This document shows positions 877 to 12,286 of a DNA stretch of 12,286 nucleotides, piece by piece. Numbering within the stretch: position 1 is the stretch's first letter; each line of letters starts with the position of its first letter. Made by a program: the position numbers and the translations under genes. This DNA comes from a bacterium. GTDB lineage: Bacteria > Thermosulfidibacterota > Thermosulfidibacteria > Thermosulfidibacterales > Thermosulfidibacteraceae. The stretch spans positions 1 through 12,286 of the forward strand of contig JALVZS010000058.1 of NCBI GenBank assembly GCA_027022065.1. The letters are read 5' to 3'. Under the pieces are notes generated by a model. That model had not been told where the DNA came from. It saw only the letters and a list, made by a program, of their open reading frames with translations, and searched no databases.

Positions 877-2094
877 ATGAACAGAAAGTACATAGTGGTT
901 CTGATGGACGGAGCAAGTGGCTGGCCTCTGGAGGAGTTGGGAGGGGCCACAACGCTGGAGAAGGCTCATACTCCCAATCTTGACTGGCTTGCCCAGCATG
1001 GGATATGCGGATGGACCAGAAATGTCCCAGATGGAATGCATCCTGGCTCCGATGTGGCGATACTTTCTGTTTTGGGATGTGATCCCAAGAGGTTCTACAC
1101 GGGAAGGGCTCCTTTGGAAGCAGCGAGTATGGGCGTTGAGCTTGTTCCAGAGGATGTGGCCTTCCGGTGCAACCTCGTGCGGGTGGAAGACGGGGTAATG
1201 AAGGACTACAGCGCAGGCCACATATCTACAGAAGAAGCAAGGGAAGTTATAGAGCTTTTGAATGAAAAGCTTTCTGATGAAGAGATAAGATTCTATCCAG
1301 GTGTGAGCTACAGGCACCTTATGGTTTGGAAGGGCGGAAAGGATAGTATGCAGTGCACTCCTCCCCACGATATTACAGGAGAACCTGTGGATGATTACCT
1401 CCCAAAGGGGGATGGGGCTGATAGGCTTTTGGAGCTTATGCAGGCATCTGTCGAAATTCTAAAGGACCATCCCAAATGCAATATGATATGGCTTTGGGGG
1501 CAGGGAAGAAGACCCTCTCTTCCATCGTTTGAAGAGCTTTACGGTGTTAAGGGAGGGGTTATTTCTGCTGTGGATCTCATAAGGGGCATAGGGGCTCTTT
1601 TGGGTATGGAAGTGATAGATGTGCCGGGAATAACAGGTTACATAGATACCAACTACGAAGGCAAGGCGGAGTATGCCATAGAATTTCTCAAAAACAAGGG
1701 CGACTTTGTGTTTATCCACATAGAAGCTCCCGATGAGGCAGGACACAACAGGAGTATAGAAGACAAGATAAAGGCTATTGAGAATATAGACAGTAAGATT
1801 GTAGGTAAGATCCTTTCCTGGATTGAGGATGAAAAGGTTCCTGCAAGGGTTCTGGTGCTTCCCGATCATCCCACACCCATAAAGCTGGGAACTCACACTG
1901 CCGAGCCTGTTCCTTATGTTATGTACAGCAGTGTCTTAAAGGTAAGAGGGGAAGGGGCCTTTAACGAGCGTGCCCTTGAGTATCTTAAGGAGTTTACCCT
2001 TGATGAAGGCCACAGGCTCATGAGCCTGTTTATGGGAAAGGTGTGCACCAATTGCGAAAACTGTCCCTTGAGTAGTAATTGCCAGCTTAAGTAG
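877..2094 (+). CDS. apgM: 2,3-bisphosphoglycerate-independent phosphoglycerate mutase, archaeal type
   Basis: This enzyme interconverts 3- and 2-phosphoglycerate in cytosolic glycolysis and gluconeogenesis. The 405-aa length fits the archaeal-type (ApgM) family of the alkaline-phosphatase superfamily, not the roughly 510-aa GpmI type. The N-terminus has [11 protein letters not shown] with metal ligand D11, and HPGSDVA with the likely phospho-accepting S58. Later metal-site segments are [10 protein letters not shown] (D286, H290), PDHPTP (D330, H331) and GTHTAEP (H340). The ATG lies one base after the stop of the CheZ-like gene, so the two are probably co-transcribed, with translational coupling. 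Oddity: the last 16 residues hold four cysteines (C390, C393, C396, C402), a CxxCxxCx5C pattern that I do not associate with the catalytic fold and that could bind a metal or cluster. The 3' end overlaps the convergent mnmA gene by 8 bases. The identification is firm. Confidence 0.93.
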
Positions 2095-3073
2095 CTTTCT
2101 CTATTATCCCTGCTCCCGCAACAAGGTTTCCCCTGTAAAAGCAGGCTATCTGACCTGGGGTTATGGCCCTTTGGGGTGTGTCAAATACAACCAATCCATC
2201 TGGGTGCACTGTGGCTTTCTGTGGTGTATGCTGCCTTCTTATCTTTACCTCTGCCCTAAATGGCCTGTTTTCGTAGATAAACCAGTTTATGTGTGCAACC
2301 TGCATGGCGCTTTTGTAAAGCTCCTGTTCGTCTCCCAAAACCACAAGATTTTCGTTGGCCAGAATATCAACCACATACAGAGGCCTGCCCAGGGATATCC
2401 CCAACCCCCTTCTTTGGCCAATTGTAAATAAAAAATGTCCTTTATGGTTTCCCAAGACCTTGCCCGATGTGTCCACAAATCTTCCGGGCCTTTCCCCTAT
2501 CCTCTCAAGCAAAAAATCTTGATAGCTTTTTCCCTTCAAGAAGCAGATCTCCTGGCTCTCTTTTGATGGAACTATCTCTCTTATTCTCTCTTCAACCTTT
2601 CTTTTTTCTTCTGCGCAGAGGGGAAACAGAACATTTGAAAAGCCTTCTTTGGGAACCAGGGATAAAAAGTATGACTGATCCTTTGTTTCGTCTTTTCCCT
2701 TTGCCAGTATGAGGTTTTTAAGACAAGCGTAGTGTCCCGTGGCAAATAGCTCTACTCCAAGCCCTTTTAGCTGCTCCCTCAGCACGCCGAACTTTACCTT
2801 TCTATTGCAAATGGCGCAGGGATTGGGTGTTTTTCCCTTTAGATACTCCTCTATGAAGTATTTTACTACGAGTTCTTCAAACTCCTCTTTCAGTCTTAAT
2901 ATGTGAAGCGGTATTCCCAGCCTGAATGCTGCAAGCTTTGCCCTGTCTAGGGCCTCATAGCCAAGGCCGAGGTCCATAAAGGCTCCTATGACATTGTATC
3001 CCTCCTTTTTAAGCTTTAGGACTGCGTAAGCAGAGTCAGCTCCTCCACTCAGGGCGACAAAAACATCTTTCAT
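2087..3073 (-). CDS. mnmA: tRNA-specific 2-thiouridylase MnmA, CxxC (probable Fe-S) type
   Basis: MnmA adenylates and thiolates U34 of tRNA-Lys, -Glu and -Gln to give s2U34. The N-terminus has the PP-loop LSGGADSA (S9-S14) for [18 protein letters not shown] follows at 82-96 with C89 at the usual catalytic position, then ATGHYA (111-116), [16 protein letters not shown] with the second catalytic C177, and GQRRGLGIS (219-227). The C-terminal beta-barrel is short, so at 328 aa the protein is smaller than E. coli MnmA (368). The extra C86 makes a CxxC and, with C177, gives three cysteines. That is the arrangement of the described Fe-S-dependent 'ancient' MnmA class, so cluster binding is inferred. 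The ATG shares one base with the upstream stop (TGATG), which implies coupled translation. It is the last gene of the seven-gene operon. Confidence 0.93.
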
Positions 3074-4047
3074 CAGGTCTTGATTATTCCCTTATTCTTT
3101 AGGATTTCCTCTATTTGGAGGGCTACCTTTAAGGACTTTAACTCTTCTTCTACTTTAACCATCCTTTTGGAGTTGCCAAGGGCCAAATCTATAAAGTGCA
3201 TAAGCTCAAGCTTCAAAGGATTTCCTTTATGCACAAAAACTTGTTCTATTATAGAACTTTGCCTGTATCTCAACTGGTCTCTAAATCTTACGGCTTCAGA
3301 GAAGGCCTGTCTGTGTATGTGTATGTCCTGCTCTGTGAAGTTGAGGAACACATAGAAATCTTTTTCCGATACGGCGAGCGTTCTTATCTTGTGCTGCGTC
3401 ACCCTGCTTGCGGTGAGGGTGGCAACACAACCGCTTTCAAACCTCAGATTGACCGTTGCCACATCGCACCTGTCTGTGTAGTAGGAGAGTCCAGTTGCTT
3501 CCACTTCCTTAAGCTCGGATCTTGCAAGTCTGAGAACGATATCTATGTCGTGGATCATTAGGTCCAAAACCACACTGTCTCTTGAGACCCTTGGAGAAAA
3601 CGGCCCCAATCTTCGGGTTTCTATCAGAAGAGGATTCTGAACTATGTTCATAAGCTCCTGAACTGCGCCGTTGAATCTCTCCACATGCCCCACGCACAGC
3701 ACCACTTTGCATTCTTCTGCTATTCTGAACATCTCCTCTGCTTCTTCAAGGGTGTATGCAATGGGCTTTTCAACGAGAACATGAACTCCTCTTCTCATAC
3801 ACTCCACAGCTATGGGGTAGTGCAGGTGTGTGGGAACCGCCACACTGACCACATCTACTTTGTCAAGTAGCTCTCTAAAGTCGGTGTAGCCAGGCACCTC
3901 GTATCTTTCGCAAATGGTCTTAAGCCTTTCCTCATCAACATCCGCTACACCAACCAGCTCAACGTAGTGTATCTCTGTATAGGCTCCGCAGTGGTACTCC
4001 CCCATTTTGCCTACGCCTATAACCCCTGCCCTAACCTTGCCTTGCAA
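3073..4047 (-). CDS. gnnA: Gfo/Idh/MocA-family dehydrogenase, probable UDP-GlcNAc 3-dehydrogenase (GnnA-like)
   Basis: The 324-aa protein has an N-terminal Rossmann fold with GVGKMG (11-16), the family's EKP motif (E93-P95) where the Lys supports hydride transfer, and MIHDIDIVL (164-172) with the conserved His (H166) of the substrate domain. The family uses NAD(P) to oxidise sugars. The specific call rests on context. It overlaps lpxA by 17 bases, and GnnA, which oxidises the 3-OH of UDP-GlcNAc for GlcN3N lipid A, is typically encoded beside lpxA (for example in Acidithiobacillus). Its partner aminotransferase GnnB is not in this window. The start is TTG: the next in-frame ATG (M15) would cut the Rossmann motif, and a good ribosome site precedes the TTG. 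Alternative: another nucleotide-sugar dehydrogenase. The family call is very sure, the substrate moderately so. Confidence 0.68.
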
Positions 4048-4813
4048 ACCTTGCCACTCCCCTCTTTGATTTTTTTATGAACTCCACAAAGGCCTTAACA
4101 TAAGGAGAATCATACTTCTCAAGCTCTGCCAGGGCCTCCTTTCTGGGTATCTCTTTTCTGTAGAAGAGATCAAAGGCCCTTTTTATGTTGAGCCTTTCCT
4201 CCTCTGGGATACCGGCCCGCTTTAGTCCAACTATGTTCAGCCCCACAACCTTGGCCGGCCTTCCAGAGGCTATTACAAAAGGCGGGATGTCCTGTCCCAA
4301 AAAGGATCCCCCTGAGATTATGGCAAGAGACCCTATGCGGACAAATTGGTGTATTCCAACATGGCCAGATATAACTGCCCTGTCTCCTATTTCCACAAAC
4401 CCCGATATTCCAGCATAGTTGGTGATAATGACGCCATTTCCGATTTTGCAATCGTGGGCAATGTGGGCATAGGCCATTATGTAGCAGTTATTCCCCACCT
4501 TTGTGGTGCATCCCTCCCTTGATGCCCTGTGGATGGTTACAAATTCCCTTATTGTGTTGTTGTCACCAATTTCAAGAAAGGTAGGTTGTCCCTTATATGA
4601 AACATCCTGGGGATCTCCCCCTATGACGGAACCTACGCCTATGTAGTTGTTCTTTCCTATTCGCACGTTTCCAAAAATAACAGCATGAGCGTCTATCTTC
4701 GTTCCATCCCTTATAACAGCCCCCTTGTGCACCACTGCAAAGGGACCTACTTCCACATCTTTTCCCAGCTCGGCTTCTGGATGGACCTGTGCACTGGGAT
4801 GGATGATTGTCAT
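4031..4813 (-). CDS. lpxA: Acyl-ACP--UDP-N-acylaminosugar O/N-acyltransferase LpxA
   Basis: LpxA is the first acyltransferase of lipid A synthesis: it moves a 3-hydroxyacyl chain from ACP to the 3-position of UDP-GlcNAc or UDP-GlcNAc3N. The protein is a left-handed beta-helix of hexapeptide repeats (about 3-190) followed by a helical C-terminus. Residues are counted from the GTG at 4816. Landmarks are [10 protein letters not shown] with catalytic H121, [13 protein letters not shown] (151-163), [10 protein letters not shown] and GLKRAGI. Length (260-261 aa) matches the family. The segment PQDVSYKG has S73 where E. coli LpxA has the active-site K76, an unusual substitution. The ATG at 4813 shares a base with the upstream stop (TGATG), just as in mnmA, so I prefer it to the GTG one codon earlier. 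With the gnnA-like neighbour, a 3-amino substrate is likely. A Gram-negative outer membrane is implied. Confidence 0.95.
4057..4063 (-). promoter_or_regulatory. Ribosome binding site fixing the TTG start of the gnnA-like gene
   Basis: On the minus strand AGGGGAG lies nine bases before the TTG at 4047, inside the 3' end of lpxA. It supports TTG as the real start. Confidence 0.6.
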
Positions 4814-6150
4814 CACTCTTTTACTGCCTGGTTTGCTGCTATTGAGAGGGGATCCCAGGCAGGAGAAAACGGTGGAGAGTAAGCCATATCCACATTCTTG
4901 AGATCCTCAATGGTGGAGTGCTTGTGCAGAAGGGCGGATACCACATCAATTCTTTTGACTGCTGTATAAGGTCCAACCATCTGGGCACCAAGTAACCTTC
5001 CACTTTCCTTTTCCCACACAAGCTTTATCCAGAGCCTTCCCGCTCCTGGGAAGTAGTGGGCCTTGTCAAGGGCCTTTACCAGAACACTTGCAGTATTAAA
5101 GCCTTCGTTAATTGCTTCTCTTTCGGTTAGGCCCGTTTTTGCTATGCCCAATTCAAAGAACTTAAACACGGTGCCTGCCGCAACGGGGGCCATTATTGCC
5201 TTTCCCCCTGCCGCATTTGTGCCTGCCACCCTTCCATGCCTGTTGGCGATGCTTCCCAGAGGGAGATATATGGGCTTTCCTGTAACCACGCTATAGCAGT
5301 GGGTACAGTCTCCAGCAGCGTAAATCCCCTCCTCGCTTGTCTGCATATGCTCATCCACCTTTATGCTTTCGGCCACGGAAAGCTCAAGCCCGGCTTCCTT
5401 TGCGAGCTTTGAATTGGGCTTCACTCCCACGGCCATTATCACCATATCCACTTCAACAATTTCTCCACTTTTCAGCCTTACCCTTTCAACCCTTTCCCTT
5501 CCCTCAATCTCCTCAAGCTCTGTGTTCCAGAGCTTCTTGACACCCTTTTCATCAAGCTTTGATAAAACAGGCTCCACTACATCCCGGTCAAAACGAGAGG
5601 GCACATGACCTTTGTAATACAGGCTGTAAACATCAAACCCCCTTTCCCTGAATGCGCTTATTAGCTCAAGTGCTATGAAGCCTCCTCCAACGATGAGAAT
5701 TTTGTTTACATTTTCCTTTTTTATGTAGGATTCTATGGCTATGAGATCATCAAGGCCCTTTACCGTAAAAACCCCTCTTAGATTACTTCCAGGAACGTCA
5801 AGTTTTCTTGCCGATGCCCCTGTTGCTATTATGAGTCTATCAAAAGGATCCTCAAAGGTTCTCCCCTGCGGGTCCCTAACGAGTACTTTCCTTTTGTCCA
5901 GATCTATACCAACTACCTCGTGTTCCAGTTTTACTTTTATACCGCTTTTTTCAAAGTCCTCAGGCCTTCTCACAATAAGTTTTTCTGGTCCTGGTATGTA
6001 TCCACCCAGTACATAGGGAATGCCACATGCTCCCACGGACACATATTTTCCCTTTTCATATATGACTATTTCTGCGCTTTTGTTGGTTCTTTTGGCCTTG
6101 GCTGCGGCACTTGTCCCTCCCGCTATTCCTCCAATAACCACGATCTTCAT
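4813..6150 (-). CDS. FAD-dependent pyridine nucleotide-disulfide oxidoreductase, CoA-disulfide reductase/NADH oxidase type
   Basis: This 445-aa flavoprotein has an FAD-binding start, [18 protein letters not shown] (4-21), a single redox cysteine in GACGIPY (C42), an NAD(P)H site VGGGFIA (154-160), the second FAD motif YAAGDC (277-282) and the usual C-terminal dimerisation domain. One active Cys, rather than a CxxxxC pair, places it with CoA-disulfide reductase, NADH oxidase/peroxidase and NAD(P)H persulfide or sulfur reductase. Tyrosines at HYFPGA (Y366) and AYSPPF (Y424) match the two Tyr of CoA-disulfide reductases, which favours CoA or persulfide chemistry over plain oxidase activity. AAGGAG lies eight bases before the ATG, which overlaps the transketolase stop as ATGA. 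Substrate cannot be settled from sequence; in a sulfur-using thermophile a role in thiol or sulfur redox is an inference. Confidence 0.85.
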
Positions 6151-8081
6151 CTTTCAATCTCCTTCTTTACAACATTAACTAAATCTTCAACGGAAAGCTT
6201 TTCCACCTTATACAGCTCCTCGGGAGAGCCGGATGGTGCGTATCTTTTCACTCCCATCTTTATCAGAGGGATGCAGGCCCTCTTTTCCATAAGCATATCC
6301 GCCACTATGGAACCTAGTCCGCTTCTTATGTTATGATCCTCATAGACGATAACTGGGCCTTTTCTACCCCACTCTATCACCTTCTCAATTTCAGGATCCA
6401 GCACACACGGCACATTTACCACCCTTACCTTTATTCCCTCCTCTTTTAATATTCTGCTTGCCTTGATGGCCCTGTGTAGCATGTTGCCGTAGGATAGAAT
6501 GGTGGCATCGCTTCCCTCAGCAACCACATCCATCTTGCCGTATTCAAATACATAATCGCCGCCAAAGATAGGTGTTCCGTTTTCATCCGTTATTATGGGC
6601 TGGGATTCCCTGCCCATACCTATGGCGTAGTTTCCATACCTTGAAAGTGCATATCTTACCGCTCTATCTGTTTGGTTGGCGTCCGCTGGTATTATAAGCT
6701 TGAAGTGGTACAGGTTTCTGATGAGCCCGATGTAATCTATGCAGTGGTGGGTTTTGCCGTCTTGGCCCACATCAATACCCAGGTGGGTAAGTATAAGCTT
6801 GAGGTTTGTGCAGTTTATGTCATTTAGCCTCTGCTGGTTGTAGACTTCGTCTATTCCAAATACGCCAAAATCAGCAAACACAGAGATTACACCGCAAACC
6901 GAGGTAGCTCCTGCAACCGTGGCAGTGTTGTGTTCCTGCACCCCCATTTCAAAGAAGTAGTCGGGGAACTCTCTGGAAAACCAGCGGGTTCTAACGGAAT
7001 CCATAAGATCACAGTCAAACACAATAATGGGCGTTCTTCCCTCTACGCCGCAGTTTCTCCTTCCAAGATCCAAAAGGGCCTTGCCAAAAGCGCTTCTATT
7101 ATCCACTTTATCCTCGGGAGTATATGTGGCTGGTGTTCCCACATCCAGGTTTATGCTGTACCTTCTACAGCTTTCGGTTTTCTCCTTTATCTGGGTGCTT
7201 TCTCTTATCTTTCTGTACTTTTCCCTATCGTTTTCTACATTGAGCTCCGCAAGGGCTTTTAGCATTTCTTCCTCTTTCAAGGCCCTTCCATGGTACTGCT
7301 CGTCATCTTCCATAAAGGATATGCCTTTGCCCATAACGGTGTTTGCTATAATGGCGTAGGGAGCAGATGTGTCTTCAACCGCTTTTTTAATGGCGCTGTA
7401 GAGCTCCTTGTAGTTGTGTCCGTCAACCTCTAGAACCTTCCATCCATCTGCCTCATAATTCGCTCTTATGTCCATGGGCATTATATCCATAAAAGCACCA
7501 CTTATCTGCTTGTTGTTGTAGTCTATGACCACGGTTATGTTGTCCAATCCAAACTTTTTTGCGAACTTTCTAGCTTCTGATACCTGTCCTTTTACTTGCT
7601 CTGCATCGGACATAAGTACAAAGGTGTGGTAGTCCATCCCCCTAACCTTTCCAGCAAGGGCGAATCCACAGCCTGCGGAAAGCCCCTGTCCCAAGTTACC
7701 CGTTGACCACTCAACCCCTGGAATTATGCGTTCCACATGCCCTTCAAATATGCTTCCCGCCTTTCTGAAGGTTGCTATGGCCTCATCAATGCTGAAGAAG
7801 CCAAGCCTGCCCAGCACAGCGTATACCGCTGGTGACGTGTGTCCATGACTTACAACAATTCTGTCCCTGTCTTCCCTTAGAGGTTCTTCTGGAAAGATCC
7901 TAGCGTAGGAGAAAACCACAAGGTATATGTCAAGAGAGGATATGGAACCTCCAGGATGGCCAGAGCCTGCAATGTTGGTCATCTTTAGTATGTCTCCCTT
8001 ACAGGTGCGGGAGAGCTCTCTTAGCCTTTTTTCTTCTTCATCAGGCAGAGATGGAAAGGGAAAGCGTAACTTATCGGCCAT
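6147..8081 (-). CDS. tkt: Transketolase, full length with altered GDG motif
   Basis: Transketolase moves two-carbon units between sugar phosphates with thiamine diphosphate, in the pentose phosphate pathway. This 644-aa protein has the whole domain set in one chain: the ThDP-binding N-terminal domain with GSGHPGGS (39-46), SHGHTSP (78-84), [10 protein letters not shown] (128-137) and DYNNKQISG (187-195), the Pyr domain with GVQEHN (catalytic Glu E383), and a C-terminal domain from about 510. The Mg/ThDP motif normally read as GDGE is SDAEQ here (158-162). The metal-binding Asp (D159) and downstream Asn remain, but both flanking glycines are replaced. I chose the ATG at 8081, which has GGGGGAG three bases upstream; a TTG four codons earlier has no ribosome site. 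It starts 27 bases after the sufB-like stop. It could be a related ThDP enzyme with a different donor, but transketolase is the best call. Confidence 0.88.
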
Positions 8082-8108
8082 TTTCTCCCCCAAGATTTTA
8101 TCTTGGCT

Positions 8109-9164
8109 TTACATGGCAGAATCGCTCATCTCTATAATTTTATCCAGCTCCCTTTTCAAGGCTTCTGGGATACCTATGATATCAACGTTGAGGAATCCCC
8201 TTACAATTGTGGCCACAGCCTCATCTTCGCTTAGGCCTCTGGCCATAAGGTACTCTATCTCCTCCTTTGCTATCTTTCCAACGGCGGCCTCATGGGACAT
8301 CTCAAGGTCCTTTGCCCTTCCCTCAAGCTCTGGTATAGCATGCATTACTCCTTTGTCGGAAAGCAAAAGGCCCTTGCACTCAAGGTGTGCTTTTACCCCT
8401 GGATACTCTCCTATAAGGTGCCCCCTTGCTATAATGGTGCCTCCAAAGCAAACGCTTCTTGATATGATTTCTGCTCTTGTTTCTGCCTCTTTCAGGTAAA
8501 CTCTGTTGCCTAGATCTATGTAGGATCCCGGTGTTGAAACGGTTATGCTCTGAAGCCTGGCAGTGGCTCCTCTGCCGTTTAGATACACTGTGGGATACGC
8601 CTTTATCTTTGCCGCAGGATGTAAACATATATAGTCTGATATGAACACTCCCCCTTCTTCCACAACTACTGCTGTTTTGGGAAGCACCTCAACCTCTCTT
8701 CCCCACATATGGATCATGGTGAAGTGAAGCTTGCCACCCTTTTTAACATAAAACTCGCTTATCCCTATGTGTTTTCCCCTCTGGGGGACGCTCGCACAAC
8801 CCGTTATGACATTCAGTTCTGCGTCTTCCTCAACCACTATAATATTGTGAACGTGCTGCTTCTCCTCTTCCTCTATGAGAAGGCAGGCCTGCACGGGAAA
8901 CAGAGGCTTAACGCCTTTTCTGACCACTATAAAATACCCGTTGGAAAAGTCTCCTAGGCTGTCATCCTTTTCAAGAGCGTTCCACAGGTAGTTTTTCGCA
9001 TCGGACAGGGTTTCAAGGGCTTCTCTGGTGGGGTATATCTCAACGCCTTCCTGCTTCACTGTACAGCGCAGAACTCCACTGTCCACCTGCATGTAGGATC
9101 CTGCTCTCTCCTTCTCCTCCTGGTCTATCCCTATCTTTTCCAGCTCAATCTTCTTTACAGACAT
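8109..9164 (-). CDS. sufB: SufB/SufD-family Fe-S assembly scaffold (SmsB-like)
   Basis: SufB/D proteins form the scaffold on which the SufC ATPase drives Fe-S cluster assembly in the cytosol. The 351-aa protein has a short helical N-terminus, a long beta-strand-rich middle (about 75-265) of the right-handed helix type, and the family's C-terminal block: [11 protein letters not shown] (260-270), [10 protein letters not shown] (289-298) and [13 protein letters not shown] (304-316). C263 aligns by eye with the catalytic Cys of E. coli SufB (C405). It is shorter than E. coli SufB (495) and SufD (423), and only one B/D protein is encoded. This matches the two-gene archaeal-style SUF, also called SMS (SmsC/SmsB). 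AAGGAGT lies seven bases before the ATG, which overlaps the end of sufC by 10 bases. No sufS, sufE or sufU is present in the window. Confidence 0.9.
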
Positions 9165-9916
9165 CTTTCACACTCCTTGTATCCGTATTTTTCTATGGTT
9201 CTCAGTATCTCAAGAGGATTGCCAGAGCACACAATTCTCCCCTTTATAAGCACATAACCGATGTCCGCATCAATGTAGTTAAGTATATGACCAGTGTGGG
9301 TGATTATTAAGGCGCTCTTCTTTCTGGCAGCTTTAAGCTCCTTTATGCTTTTGCCCTCAACGGGCTCAATGTTCCTTCCTAAGATTTTGTTTATGGCCCT
9401 TCCCAAAAGGCCTATGCTTTCAAGATCCACGCCTGATTCTGGCTCATCAAGTAATAGCAAATCGGGGTCCATGGCCATAAGCTGTAGAATTTCTGAGCGC
9501 TTCATCTCACCGCCGGAGAAGCCCAAGTTCACCTCTCTATCAAGGAACTCTTCCATGTTCACCTCTTGGGCAAGCTCGTAGGGATCTACCTCTTTCCCTC
9601 TTACAGATGCGGCTATCTCAACAATCTGCCTGGTTTTAACTCCCCTGATCACAGGAGGCCTTTGAAAGGCCAGTCCTATACCCATCTTTGCCCTTTCGTG
9701 CACGGGAAGGTGGGTTATGTCTCTTCCCTTAAAAATTATCCTACCTGATGTTACCTCGTATCCTGAAAACCCCATTATGGTCATTATAAGTGTGGTCTTC
9801 CCTGAGCCATTGGGTCCCATAAGGGTTACCACCTTTCCCTCTGGGACCTCTAGGTCTATACCGTGGAGAATCTCTTTTCCCTCAACATTCACCTTTAGCC
9901 CTTCAATTTTCAGCAA
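9155..9916 (-). CDS. sufC: Fe-S assembly ATPase SufC (SmsC-like)
   Basis: SufC is the cytosolic ABC-type ATPase that works on the SufB-like scaffold encoded just downstream. The 253 aa contain Walker [10 protein letters not shown] (34-42), Q-loop FQRPP (84-88), a signature segment GFSGGEMKR (132-140), Walker [13 protein letters not shown] (153-164) and H-loop THTGH (H207). FSGGEMKR and DEPESGVD are SufC hallmarks that separate it from transporter ATPases. The start is TTG, preceded at good spacing by AAAGGAGG. Unlike E. coli SufC, it has an insert (about 178-198) before the H-loop strand and ends with C249xxC252, which could bind a metal or cluster. It is the first gene of the seven-gene run, with its own promoter. 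Two-gene sufCB without sufD resembles the SMS type. Confidence 0.92.
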
Positions 9917-9923
9917 CTTTGAA

Positions 9924-9931
9924 CCTCCTTT
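9924..9931 (-). promoter_or_regulatory. Strong ribosome binding site for the sufC TTG start
   Basis: AAAGGAGG reads on the minus strand seven bases before the TTG at 9916. It is among the best Shine-Dalgarno matches in the window and supports a rare start codon for the operon's first gene. Confidence 0.75.
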
Positions 9932-9944
9932 CCCCTTTAGGCTT

Positions 9945-9969
9945 AAATATAACTTTTATTGTTATATTT
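9945..9969. repeat. Perfect 9-bp inverted repeat, possible operator
   Basis: AAATATAAC (9945-9953) and GTTATATTT (9961-9969) are exact reverse complements across a 7-base centre. The dyad fills the spacer and -10 of the suf promoter, so a bound dimer would block RNA polymerase. Fe-S genes are often controlled by Fe-S-sensing or iron-sensing repressors, but this site matches none that I can name. The stem is A/T-only except for one G:C pair per arm, so a terminator is less likely. Confidence 0.55.
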
Positions 9970-9974
9970 GTCAA
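9946..9974 (-). promoter_or_regulatory. sigma70-type promoter of the suf operon
   Basis: On the minus strand a perfect -35 TTGACA (9974-9969), a 17-base spacer and a -10 TATATT (9951-9946, five of six consensus bases) stand upstream of sufC. Transcription should begin near 9938-9940, giving a leader of about 22-24 bases that contains the ribosome site. The -35 box overlaps the stop codon of the upstream ABC ATPase gene. The promoter lies over the 9945-9969 inverted repeat, so control by a repressor there is plausible (inference). Confidence 0.7.
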
Positions 9975-10909
9975 ATATTAAAGCACCTGACCTTGTGCTC
10001 TCCCTTCACGGCCTTCCAAGAGGGTTCTTCTCTGTAGCAGATATCCAAAGCTTTTGCACATCTTGGTGCGTAAGGACAGCCCTGGGATGCCTTTCTAGAT
10101 TCCGTTGTTCTGATTACCTTAATAGGTCTGGTGTCTGGAAGAGGCACTGATTCAATCAGGGAAACTGTATATGGATGCTTTGGATCAGATAATACTTCCT
10201 CAAGTTTTCCTTCCTCCACCAGGGTTCCTCTATATAGCACTCCTATTCTATTTCCTATCTCTGCCGCTACCGATACATCGTGGGTCACAAAAAGCATAGA
10301 GGTTTCCCTTTTCTCCACAAGCATCTTCAAGAGCCTAAGTATCTGGGCTTGGACCGTGACATCTAGAGCAGTTGTTGGCTCGTCTGCGAGGATAAGCTTG
10401 GGGTTGGCTATTGTGGCCATGGCTATTACAACCCTCTGCCTCATTCCACCGCTTAAAAGATGCGGATAGTAGTAGTATCTTTCCTCTGGATCGGGTATTT
10501 CAAGCTCTTCAAAGGCCTTAATAACCCTTTTCCTTGCCTCTTCATCTTTCATTCCGAAGTGATGCTTCAGCACTTCAGCCACCTGTTGTCCTACTCTCAT
10601 GGTGGGGTTGAGGGCCGTCATGGGTTCCTGAAACACCATCCCTATAGCTTTTCCTCTATACCTTATTTTCTCTGATTCTGGAAGGCTTAAGAGATCCTTT
10701 CCCTCAAAAAACACACTTCCAGAAGCCTCGGCATTTGGGGGAAGAAGGCCCATAATACAGCGAAGTATCATGGTCTTACCAGAGCCAGATTCTCCTAGAA
10801 GGCAATAAACCTCACCTTTTCTAATAAAGAAGGAGACCCCCTTCAGGGCCTCCTTCTTATGGCCGTTTATCCTGAAAGCCAGTTTAAGATTTTTAACTTC
10901 CAGTAGCAA
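9971..10909 (-). CDS. Oligopeptide/dipeptide-type ABC transporter ATP-binding protein (OppD/DppD-like)
   Basis: This is a 312-aa ATPase of the peptide/nickel import family, acting at the inner face of the membrane. It has Walker A GESGSGKT (39-46), Q-loop [10 protein letters not shown] (93-102), signature LSGGMRQR (152-159), Walker [13 protein letters not shown] (172-183) and H-loop THD (H210). The C-terminal oligopeptide domain carries HPYT and four cysteines (C278, C284, C291, C309), the arrangement known to bind a [4Fe-4S] cluster in DppD-type proteins. The start is a TTG directly after the TAA of the upstream gene, without a clear ribosome site, so translation is probably coupled. No permease, binding protein or second ATPase (OppF) is in the window, so the transporter is either encoded elsewhere or unusual. 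The family is certain; the substrate is unknown. Confidence 0.88.
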
Positions 10910-11705: not shown

Positions 11706-11734
11706 AGATACCTAATATACGGTGGAGTTGTCAA
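11706..11734 (-). promoter_or_regulatory. Candidate promoter for the coiled-coil protein/ABC ATPase pair
   Basis: A perfect -35 TTGACA (11734-11729, minus strand) is followed at 17-18 bases by a weak -10 (GTATCT/TATCTC). A better -10 word, TATATT (11719-11714), is present but only nine bases after that -35. The elements conflict, so the exact promoter is uncertain. Confidence 0.4.
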
Positions 11735-11742
11735 TCCTTGAC
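11730..11742. repeat. Short dyad joining the two divergent -35 elements
   Basis: GTCAA-TCC-TTGAC is a perfect 5-bp inverted repeat. It arises because the minus-strand -35 (TTGACA) and the plus-strand -35 (TTGACC) stand back to back three bases apart. It may be only that, or a small operator for both genes. Confidence 0.4.
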
Positions 11743-11766
11743 CAGCGCAAAACGAAAGGTAATAAA
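11738..11766 (+). promoter_or_regulatory. Candidate divergent promoter for the ketosynthase-like gene
   Basis: TTGACC (11738-11743) and, after 16-17 bases, TAATAA/AATAAA (11760-11766) make a modest sigma70-like promoter. The predicted transcript start falls at or next to the ATG at 11773, so the mRNA may be leaderless or nearly so. Confidence 0.35.
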
Positions 11767-11772
11767 AGGGGC

Positions 11773-12286
11773 ATGTCAGTTATAGTTGAAGGGGCATACA
11801 TAAAGGCTGAGTCTTTCACTAACACAGAGGGACTTCCTGTAAGGTTTTACGGGAGGATAGATTGGAAAAAGCACATTAGGCCTCCCAAGAGGAGATGGAA
11901 GTTTTTTAAAAGGCTTCCCGATGCCCTTAAAGTGCTTATTGGACTTCTGGATGGACTTTTATATGTGGAGTCTTTTCTTAAGGAAAGGATTGCAGTTGTA
12001 ACGGCGGCGAAGCTTGAAGCGGAAAGGGATGAGGTGGCATTAAGGGGTGAGCAGGTTTCTCCCTCTGACGGCTTTATTTTTACCCATAATGCTGTAAACT
12101 TCGTTATAGCAAGCTATCTCGGAATAGACTTTTATCTGGGAATAGGCGTGGATCATGTGTGCTCCTCGGGGATTGATGTGCTGGGCATTGCCCATGAGAT
12201 GATATCCTCCGGGCAGGTGGATGCCGCTATTGTCTGCGCTCTGAACAGTATGGCCTCTGTGTGCAGGACTGCCTACCATCTTAAAG
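11773..12286 (+). CDS. Beta-ketoacyl-synthase/thiolase-fold protein, N-terminal part (runs off the window)
   Basis: The ATG at 11773 opens a frame that continues past the right edge (171 residues seen). The segment VDHVCSSGIDVLGIAHEM (126-143), followed by SSGQVDAAIVCALN, matches the nucleophile-elbow region of ketosynthases and thiolase-fold enzymes, where the Cys (C130) takes the acyl chain. FIFTHNAVNFVIASYLGI (101-118) corresponds to the strand-helix region before it. The usual N-terminal VVITGxG motif is missing; instead there is a basic stretch, KKHIRPPKRRWKFFKRLPD (32-50), then a hydrophobic one. So this is a divergent ketosynthase, not standard FabF or FabH. The His residues that would set the class lie beyond the window. 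In-frame GTG (11722) and TTG (11728) starts are possible but overlap promoter elements. Role unknown; lipid or secondary-metabolite chain extension is an inference. Confidence 0.7.
   Translation, partial: MSVIVEGAYIKAESFTNTEGLPVRFYGRIDWKKHIRPPKRRWKFFKRLPDALKVLIGLLDGLLYVESFLKERIAVVTAAKLEAERDEVALRGEQVSPSDGFIFTHNAVNFVIASYLGIDFYLGIGVDHVCSSGIDVLGIAHEMISSGQVDAAIVCALNSMASVCRTAYHLK

Follow-up and report, generated by a model that had tools for sequence, protein, structure and literature searches.

The closest described counterparts of the locus reported here are the operators of two Rrf2 proteins, IscR and RisR. The 25-bp IscR type 1 consensus (ATASYYGACTRWWWYAGTCRRSTAT) is centred on GAC-N7-GTC (PMC3899308). 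The Myxococcus protein RisR recognises T(t/g)GAC-N7-GTCC(t/a) flanked by AT-rich sequence, protecting both the -35 and the -10 of Psuf, and Rrf2 proteins are known to have taken over the control of Fe-S assembly repeatedly and independently (PMC9973013). On the side of the target genes, the nearest relative is the SMS system (SmsC2B2) of methanogens and Thermococcus, which is encoded by a two-gene smsC-smsB unit, and whose transcriptional control none of the papers that we found describes.

The palindrome that precedes sufC in the window, by which we mean the whole 12,286-nucleotide stretch of DNA analysed, shares with the IscR type 1 site at the isc promoter of E. coli and Pseudomonas a 25-bp dyad, an AC-N7-GT core and an AT-rich centre, and it likewise overlaps the RNA polymerase site of a promoter that drives an Fe-S assembly operon. 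It differs in having AAC/GTT at its core where IscR sites have GAC/GTC, such that it fits 15 of the 25 consensus positions (60%), and also in a candidate regulator that is not iscR-linked and a target that consists of a two-gene system of the SMS type. The comparison with the RisR sites that Myxococcus xanthus carries at its isc and suf promoters is similar: the xAC-N7-GTx arrangement, the AT-rich flanks and the coverage of -35 and -10 at Psuf recur, and we count as a further likeness to the reading developed below that RisR is an autoregulated, Fe-S-binding Rrf2 repressor. In contrast, the RisR core is GGAC/GTCC, its target is a complete SUF system, and risR lies with the suf genes while the rrf2 gene considered here lies elsewhere, beside purC. 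Measured against an Rrf2/IscR-type operator, the locus thus has the dyad, the position over the promoter of an Fe-S assembly operon and, in the same genome, an Rrf2 protein with ligand-like cysteines and a like site at its gene; the consensus letters of IscR type 1 or RisR (GAC/GTC core) and a conserved site in related genomes are missing. The first-pass annotation had stated that the sequence resembles no IscR site, which is true of the letters and does not hold for the layout.

The sufC promoter and its gene run

On the minus strand, TTGACA (9974-9969) and TATATT (9951-9946) are separated by a 17-nt spacer and precede sufC, matching 11 of the 12 consensus bases. The TGA stop codon (9973-9971) of an upstream oppD-like ABC ATPase gene (9971-10909, minus) sits within the -35 hexamer, and further downstream a Shine-Dalgarno sequence, AGGAGG (9924-9929, minus), precedes the TTG start of sufC at 9916. 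A perfect inverted repeat, AAATATAAC-N7-GTTATATTT, with 9-bp arms and no mismatches, occupies positions 9945-9969 (no strand assigned) and is the sole copy within the window; the first-pass end coordinate of 9974 takes in the -35 hexamer as well. Its N7 centre consists of A and T only (TTTTATT on the forward strand, AATAAAA on the minus strand), and the palindrome covers the spacer and the -10, with the TATATT hexamer lying inside one arm.

Relatives whose SufB proteins are 62-78% identical have a similar promoter at the same place, including those with a different gene upstream. In the two genomes of the sister genus (G001 and G002) it reads TTGACT-17-TATATT and TTGATT-17-TATATT, respectively, in both cases at the end of oppD and with the -10 kept, and in the next family it reads TTGACT-17-TAACAT or TACATT behind another gene. 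Given this conservation, the sufC promoter is, judging from its sequence, a genuine near-consensus promoter of the sigma-70 type.

Downstream of the promoter, seven genes follow on the minus strand with overlaps or short gaps: sufC, encoding an smsC-like ATPase (9155-9916), sufB, encoding an smsB-like scaffold subunit (8109-9164), and genes for transketolase (6147-8093; NF004556), a CoA-disulfide-reductase-like flavoprotein (4813-6150), LpxA (4031-4816), a Gfo/Idh/MocA oxidoreductase (3073-4047) and, as the final gene of the run, MnmA (2087-3073). The same strand carries oppD and one more gene upstream, so the run may be longer and the sufC promoter internal to it. A thiolase/HMG-CoA-synthase-like gene (11722-12285) diverges from the hyp-oppD-suf run, an arrangement kept in G001 and G002. 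The near-consensus promoter, the perfect repeat in its spacer and -10, and the seven-gene run described in the first-pass annotation are all borne out by this analysis, and its remark on geometry was apt, as a dimeric repressor bound at the dyad would stand in the way of RNA polymerase.

Homologues of SufC and SufB alone make up the Fe-S assembly unit, which contains neither SufD nor other SUF genes, and the genome encodes only one SufB/D-type protein. The SufC homologue scores 206.2 bits against TIGR01978 (cut-off 212.8) and carries Cys230 and, in a C-x2-C motif, Cys249 and Cys252 near its C-terminus, a pattern that matches the cluster ligands C218, C239 and C242 of M. jannaschii SmsC. For the SufB homologue the best model is NF052511 (SmsB), a narrow model of the 'exception' type, although the score of 168 bits is well below the curated cut-off of 650. 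Taken from sequence, the two-gene unit appears to fit SMS better than full SUF; unlike the unit of methanogens and Thermococcus, it is bacterial and is followed by the transketolase and the other genes. The three genomes of the family contain no NifU_N/IscU scaffold, on which ground an ISC scaffold was rejected as an alternative target, and bacteria of this lineage seem to depend on an SMS-type system that lacks IscU/NifU. Relatives of SufB at about 50% identity are found in deltaproteobacterial, Omnitrophota and methanogen genomes. On an Omnitrophota contig (L028), an Rrf2-like gene (43-426) lies about 600 bp upstream of smsCB-type genes (1043-1744), and in genome G039 (L052) such a gene directly precedes sufC; hence, Rrf2-SMS pairs occur elsewhere.

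The Rrf2 protein and a second site at its gene

The search for regulators was confined to the Rrf2 and FUR families, and yielded a single Rrf2 match (2.1e-33) and a single Fur-family protein in the genome. The rrf2 gene (G000, contig C97:4386-4769) is unlinked to sufC and divergent from purC. Its product of 138-140 residues contains the motif C-x6-C-x5-C-x2-H, in which the cysteines correspond to IscR-like cluster ligands and suggest that the protein may bind a cluster, and its best functional models are the TIGR02944 SUF regulator and RirA, both with scores below the cut-off.

Four bp upstream of the first possible rrf2 start codon lies TTTAC-TAAAAAA-GTAAA, with the same core and spacing as at sufC (site sequence in the rrf2 upstream region, C97:4776-4890: TTTACTAAAAAAGTAAA). 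Shuffled versions of this region yield such a site in 0.64% of cases if symmetry is demanded, in 0.13% if the W pattern is, and in 0.025% if both are, figures that carry some hindsight in that the rrf2 promoter was inspected first; Rrf2 was, on the other hand, one of the two regulators named beforehand (Rrf2 and Fur), and the spacing was drawn from known sites. When every A/T position of the sufC site is relaxed to W, the resulting pattern, WWWAC-W7-GTWWW, occurs three times in the 1.57-Mb assembly, namely at sufC, upstream of rrf2 and upstream of a ParM-like gene, and a requirement for symmetry leaves the sufC and rrf2 sites only. The narrower form WTWAC-W7-GTWAW has exactly two sites in the assembly, but was written after both had been seen; the fairer WWWAC form still gives three. 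Similarly, among 226 intergenic stretches within the 53% of the genome that was sampled, those of sufC and rrf2 are the only ones with a symmetric AT-rich site. Occurrence at random sites had been named in the first-pass annotation as an outcome that would speak against an operator, and it is not what the genome displays, the only other symmetric relaxed site being the one upstream of rrf2.

The third WWWAC site, ATAAC-W7-GTATT, is asymmetric and lies upstream of the ParM/actin-like gene (L232, 1700-2710), which together with a small downstream ORF suggests a plasmid or integrated element in the assembly.

Chance, conservation and other readings

The serious rival is that this is an ordinary constitutive sigma-70 promoter whose AT-rich spacer mirrors the -10 by chance, with no regulator involved, a reading that we find quite conceivable while rating it as somewhat short of probable. 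About 0.6 perfect repeats with arms of at least 9 bp are expected over the 12-kb window and one was observed, so the repeat alone is unremarkable at this scale and constitutes weak evidence. At the scale of the promoter the picture is different: a perfect repeat with arms of 9 bp or more (loop 3-12) arises in only 0.1-0.8% of dinucleotide shuffles of the sufC intergenic region, and of the 25 promoter-like noncoding sites that 833 kb of the genome contain, the sufC site alone has arms of 9 bp, one other having 8 bp and the rest at most 6. These background statistics derive from 833 kb of the 1.57 Mb (53% of the assembly), while the pattern searches covered all of it. Copies of the palindrome elsewhere offer chance a further point in its favour. 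None besides sufC was found in the genome with up to three mismatches, and with up to five there are seven noncoding sites against 5.05 +/- 2.4 for shuffled arms, which is no excess; a regulon of near-identical copies was rejected on these counts. Arm spacings of 3 to 12 other than 7 gave scattered matches only, mostly in coding sequence, and AC-N7-GT is not commoner in the genome than other gap lengths. A further point against chance is that just one more symmetric site of this form exists, and it adjoins rrf2.

Conservation, which the first-pass annotation had proposed as a check on an operator, came out against it. Nine genomes of the order were compared (this one and eight others), and the palindrome is absent from the sufC promoters of all eight others, the sister genus included; these relatives keep the promoter hexamers, and share the arm that contains the -10 and not the other arm. 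This absence counts against a widely conserved operator and accords with a chance palindrome. The Rrf2 protein itself is present in the sister genus (57% identical in G002, similar in G001), although neither rrf2 promoter there has an AC-N7-GT site, no palindrome with this core is common to the sufC and rrf2 promoters inside either genome, and the four degenerate palindrome matches in the G002 genome are fewer than its control count. In three of the nine, sufCB is present and an Rrf2 match is lacking. The putative recognition helix reads KSFLPRII in this genome as opposed to K/RSFLPGII in G001 and G002, and one may conjecture that the palindrome is missing from the sister genus as a result of changed Rrf2 specificity; the same absence can be read just as fairly as the loss of any function.

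Other dyads do occur in G001. About 102-73 bp upstream of its sufC, within the end of oppD, there is a 10-bp perfect repeat, CATTTAACCC-N9-GGGTTAAATG (L038), which is absent from the window, and its rrf2 promoter carries a different dyad, TTTTTGAG-N10-CTCAAAAA (L093), with no counterpart by eye at the G001 sufC promoter.

An operator for some other dimeric regulator, for example of the ArsR, MarR, TetR or Fur family, as first suggested for this locus, strikes us as improbable. A perfect dyad over a promoter would suit any such protein, and the genome does encode a Fur-family member among the two families searched; however, no regulator gene adjoins sufC, the palindrome lacks the 7-1-7 layout of a Fur box, no second site was found near the fur gene, and both the spacing and the rrf2 site favour Rrf2. 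Fur itself was rejected as the regulator, the genome having one fur gene and no matching box or site. It is very improbable indeed that the repeat acts as RNA, either as an oppD terminator or as a 5'-terminal hairpin of the sufC message, for while the minus-strand RNA folds at -5.5 kcal/mol (z = -3.6), its nine pairs include one G-C, there is no U-tract and no terminator call, which led us to reject a terminator, and the predicted start point, near 9939, is downstream of the repeat, which would leave the repeat outside the sufC message.

Proposed control of the smsCB unit

The explanation that we favour, with a confidence just better than even, is that the sufC palindrome is a lineage-specific operator for the IscR-like Rrf2 repressor of this genome, placed over the promoter of a minimal SmsCB operon. 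The only close symmetric match adjoins the Rrf2 gene, and the operator is therefore probably that of Rrf2. By analogy with IscR and RisR, a cluster-loaded Rrf2 dimer would bind the 25-bp palindrome and cover the -35, the spacer and the -10, excluding RNA polymerase; when clusters become scarce, Rrf2 would come off the DNA and allow transcription of smsCB, and its effect might reach over all seven genes. Through the second site, Rrf2 might also repress its own gene. Where the first-pass annotation invoked an unknown sensor, the genome thus offers an Rrf2 protein whose cysteines are IscR-like and at whose gene the only other symmetric site lies; the earlier interpretation stands as regards the promoter, the placement of the dyad and the gene run, and gives way on the unknown sensor and the lack of likeness to IscR. 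The fuller proposal, that an unlinked and autoregulated Fe-S-sensing Rrf2 exerts feedback control over a minimal, ancestral-type SmsCB in a lineage of uncultured bacteria, by way of an operator with an AAC-N7-GTT core and a specificity of its own, is more tentative, and we place it slightly below an even chance.

The sufC and rrf2 sites together with Rrf2 constitute a candidate regulator-operator pair ready for a binding assay. If the palindrome is an Rrf2 site, it would link a regulator of this family to a two-gene SMS system and would imply a change of operator between sister genera. If the proposal is true as a whole, IscR-like homeostasis would act on SMS, and the control of Fe-S assembly in this lineage would represent a recent, lineage-specific rewiring.
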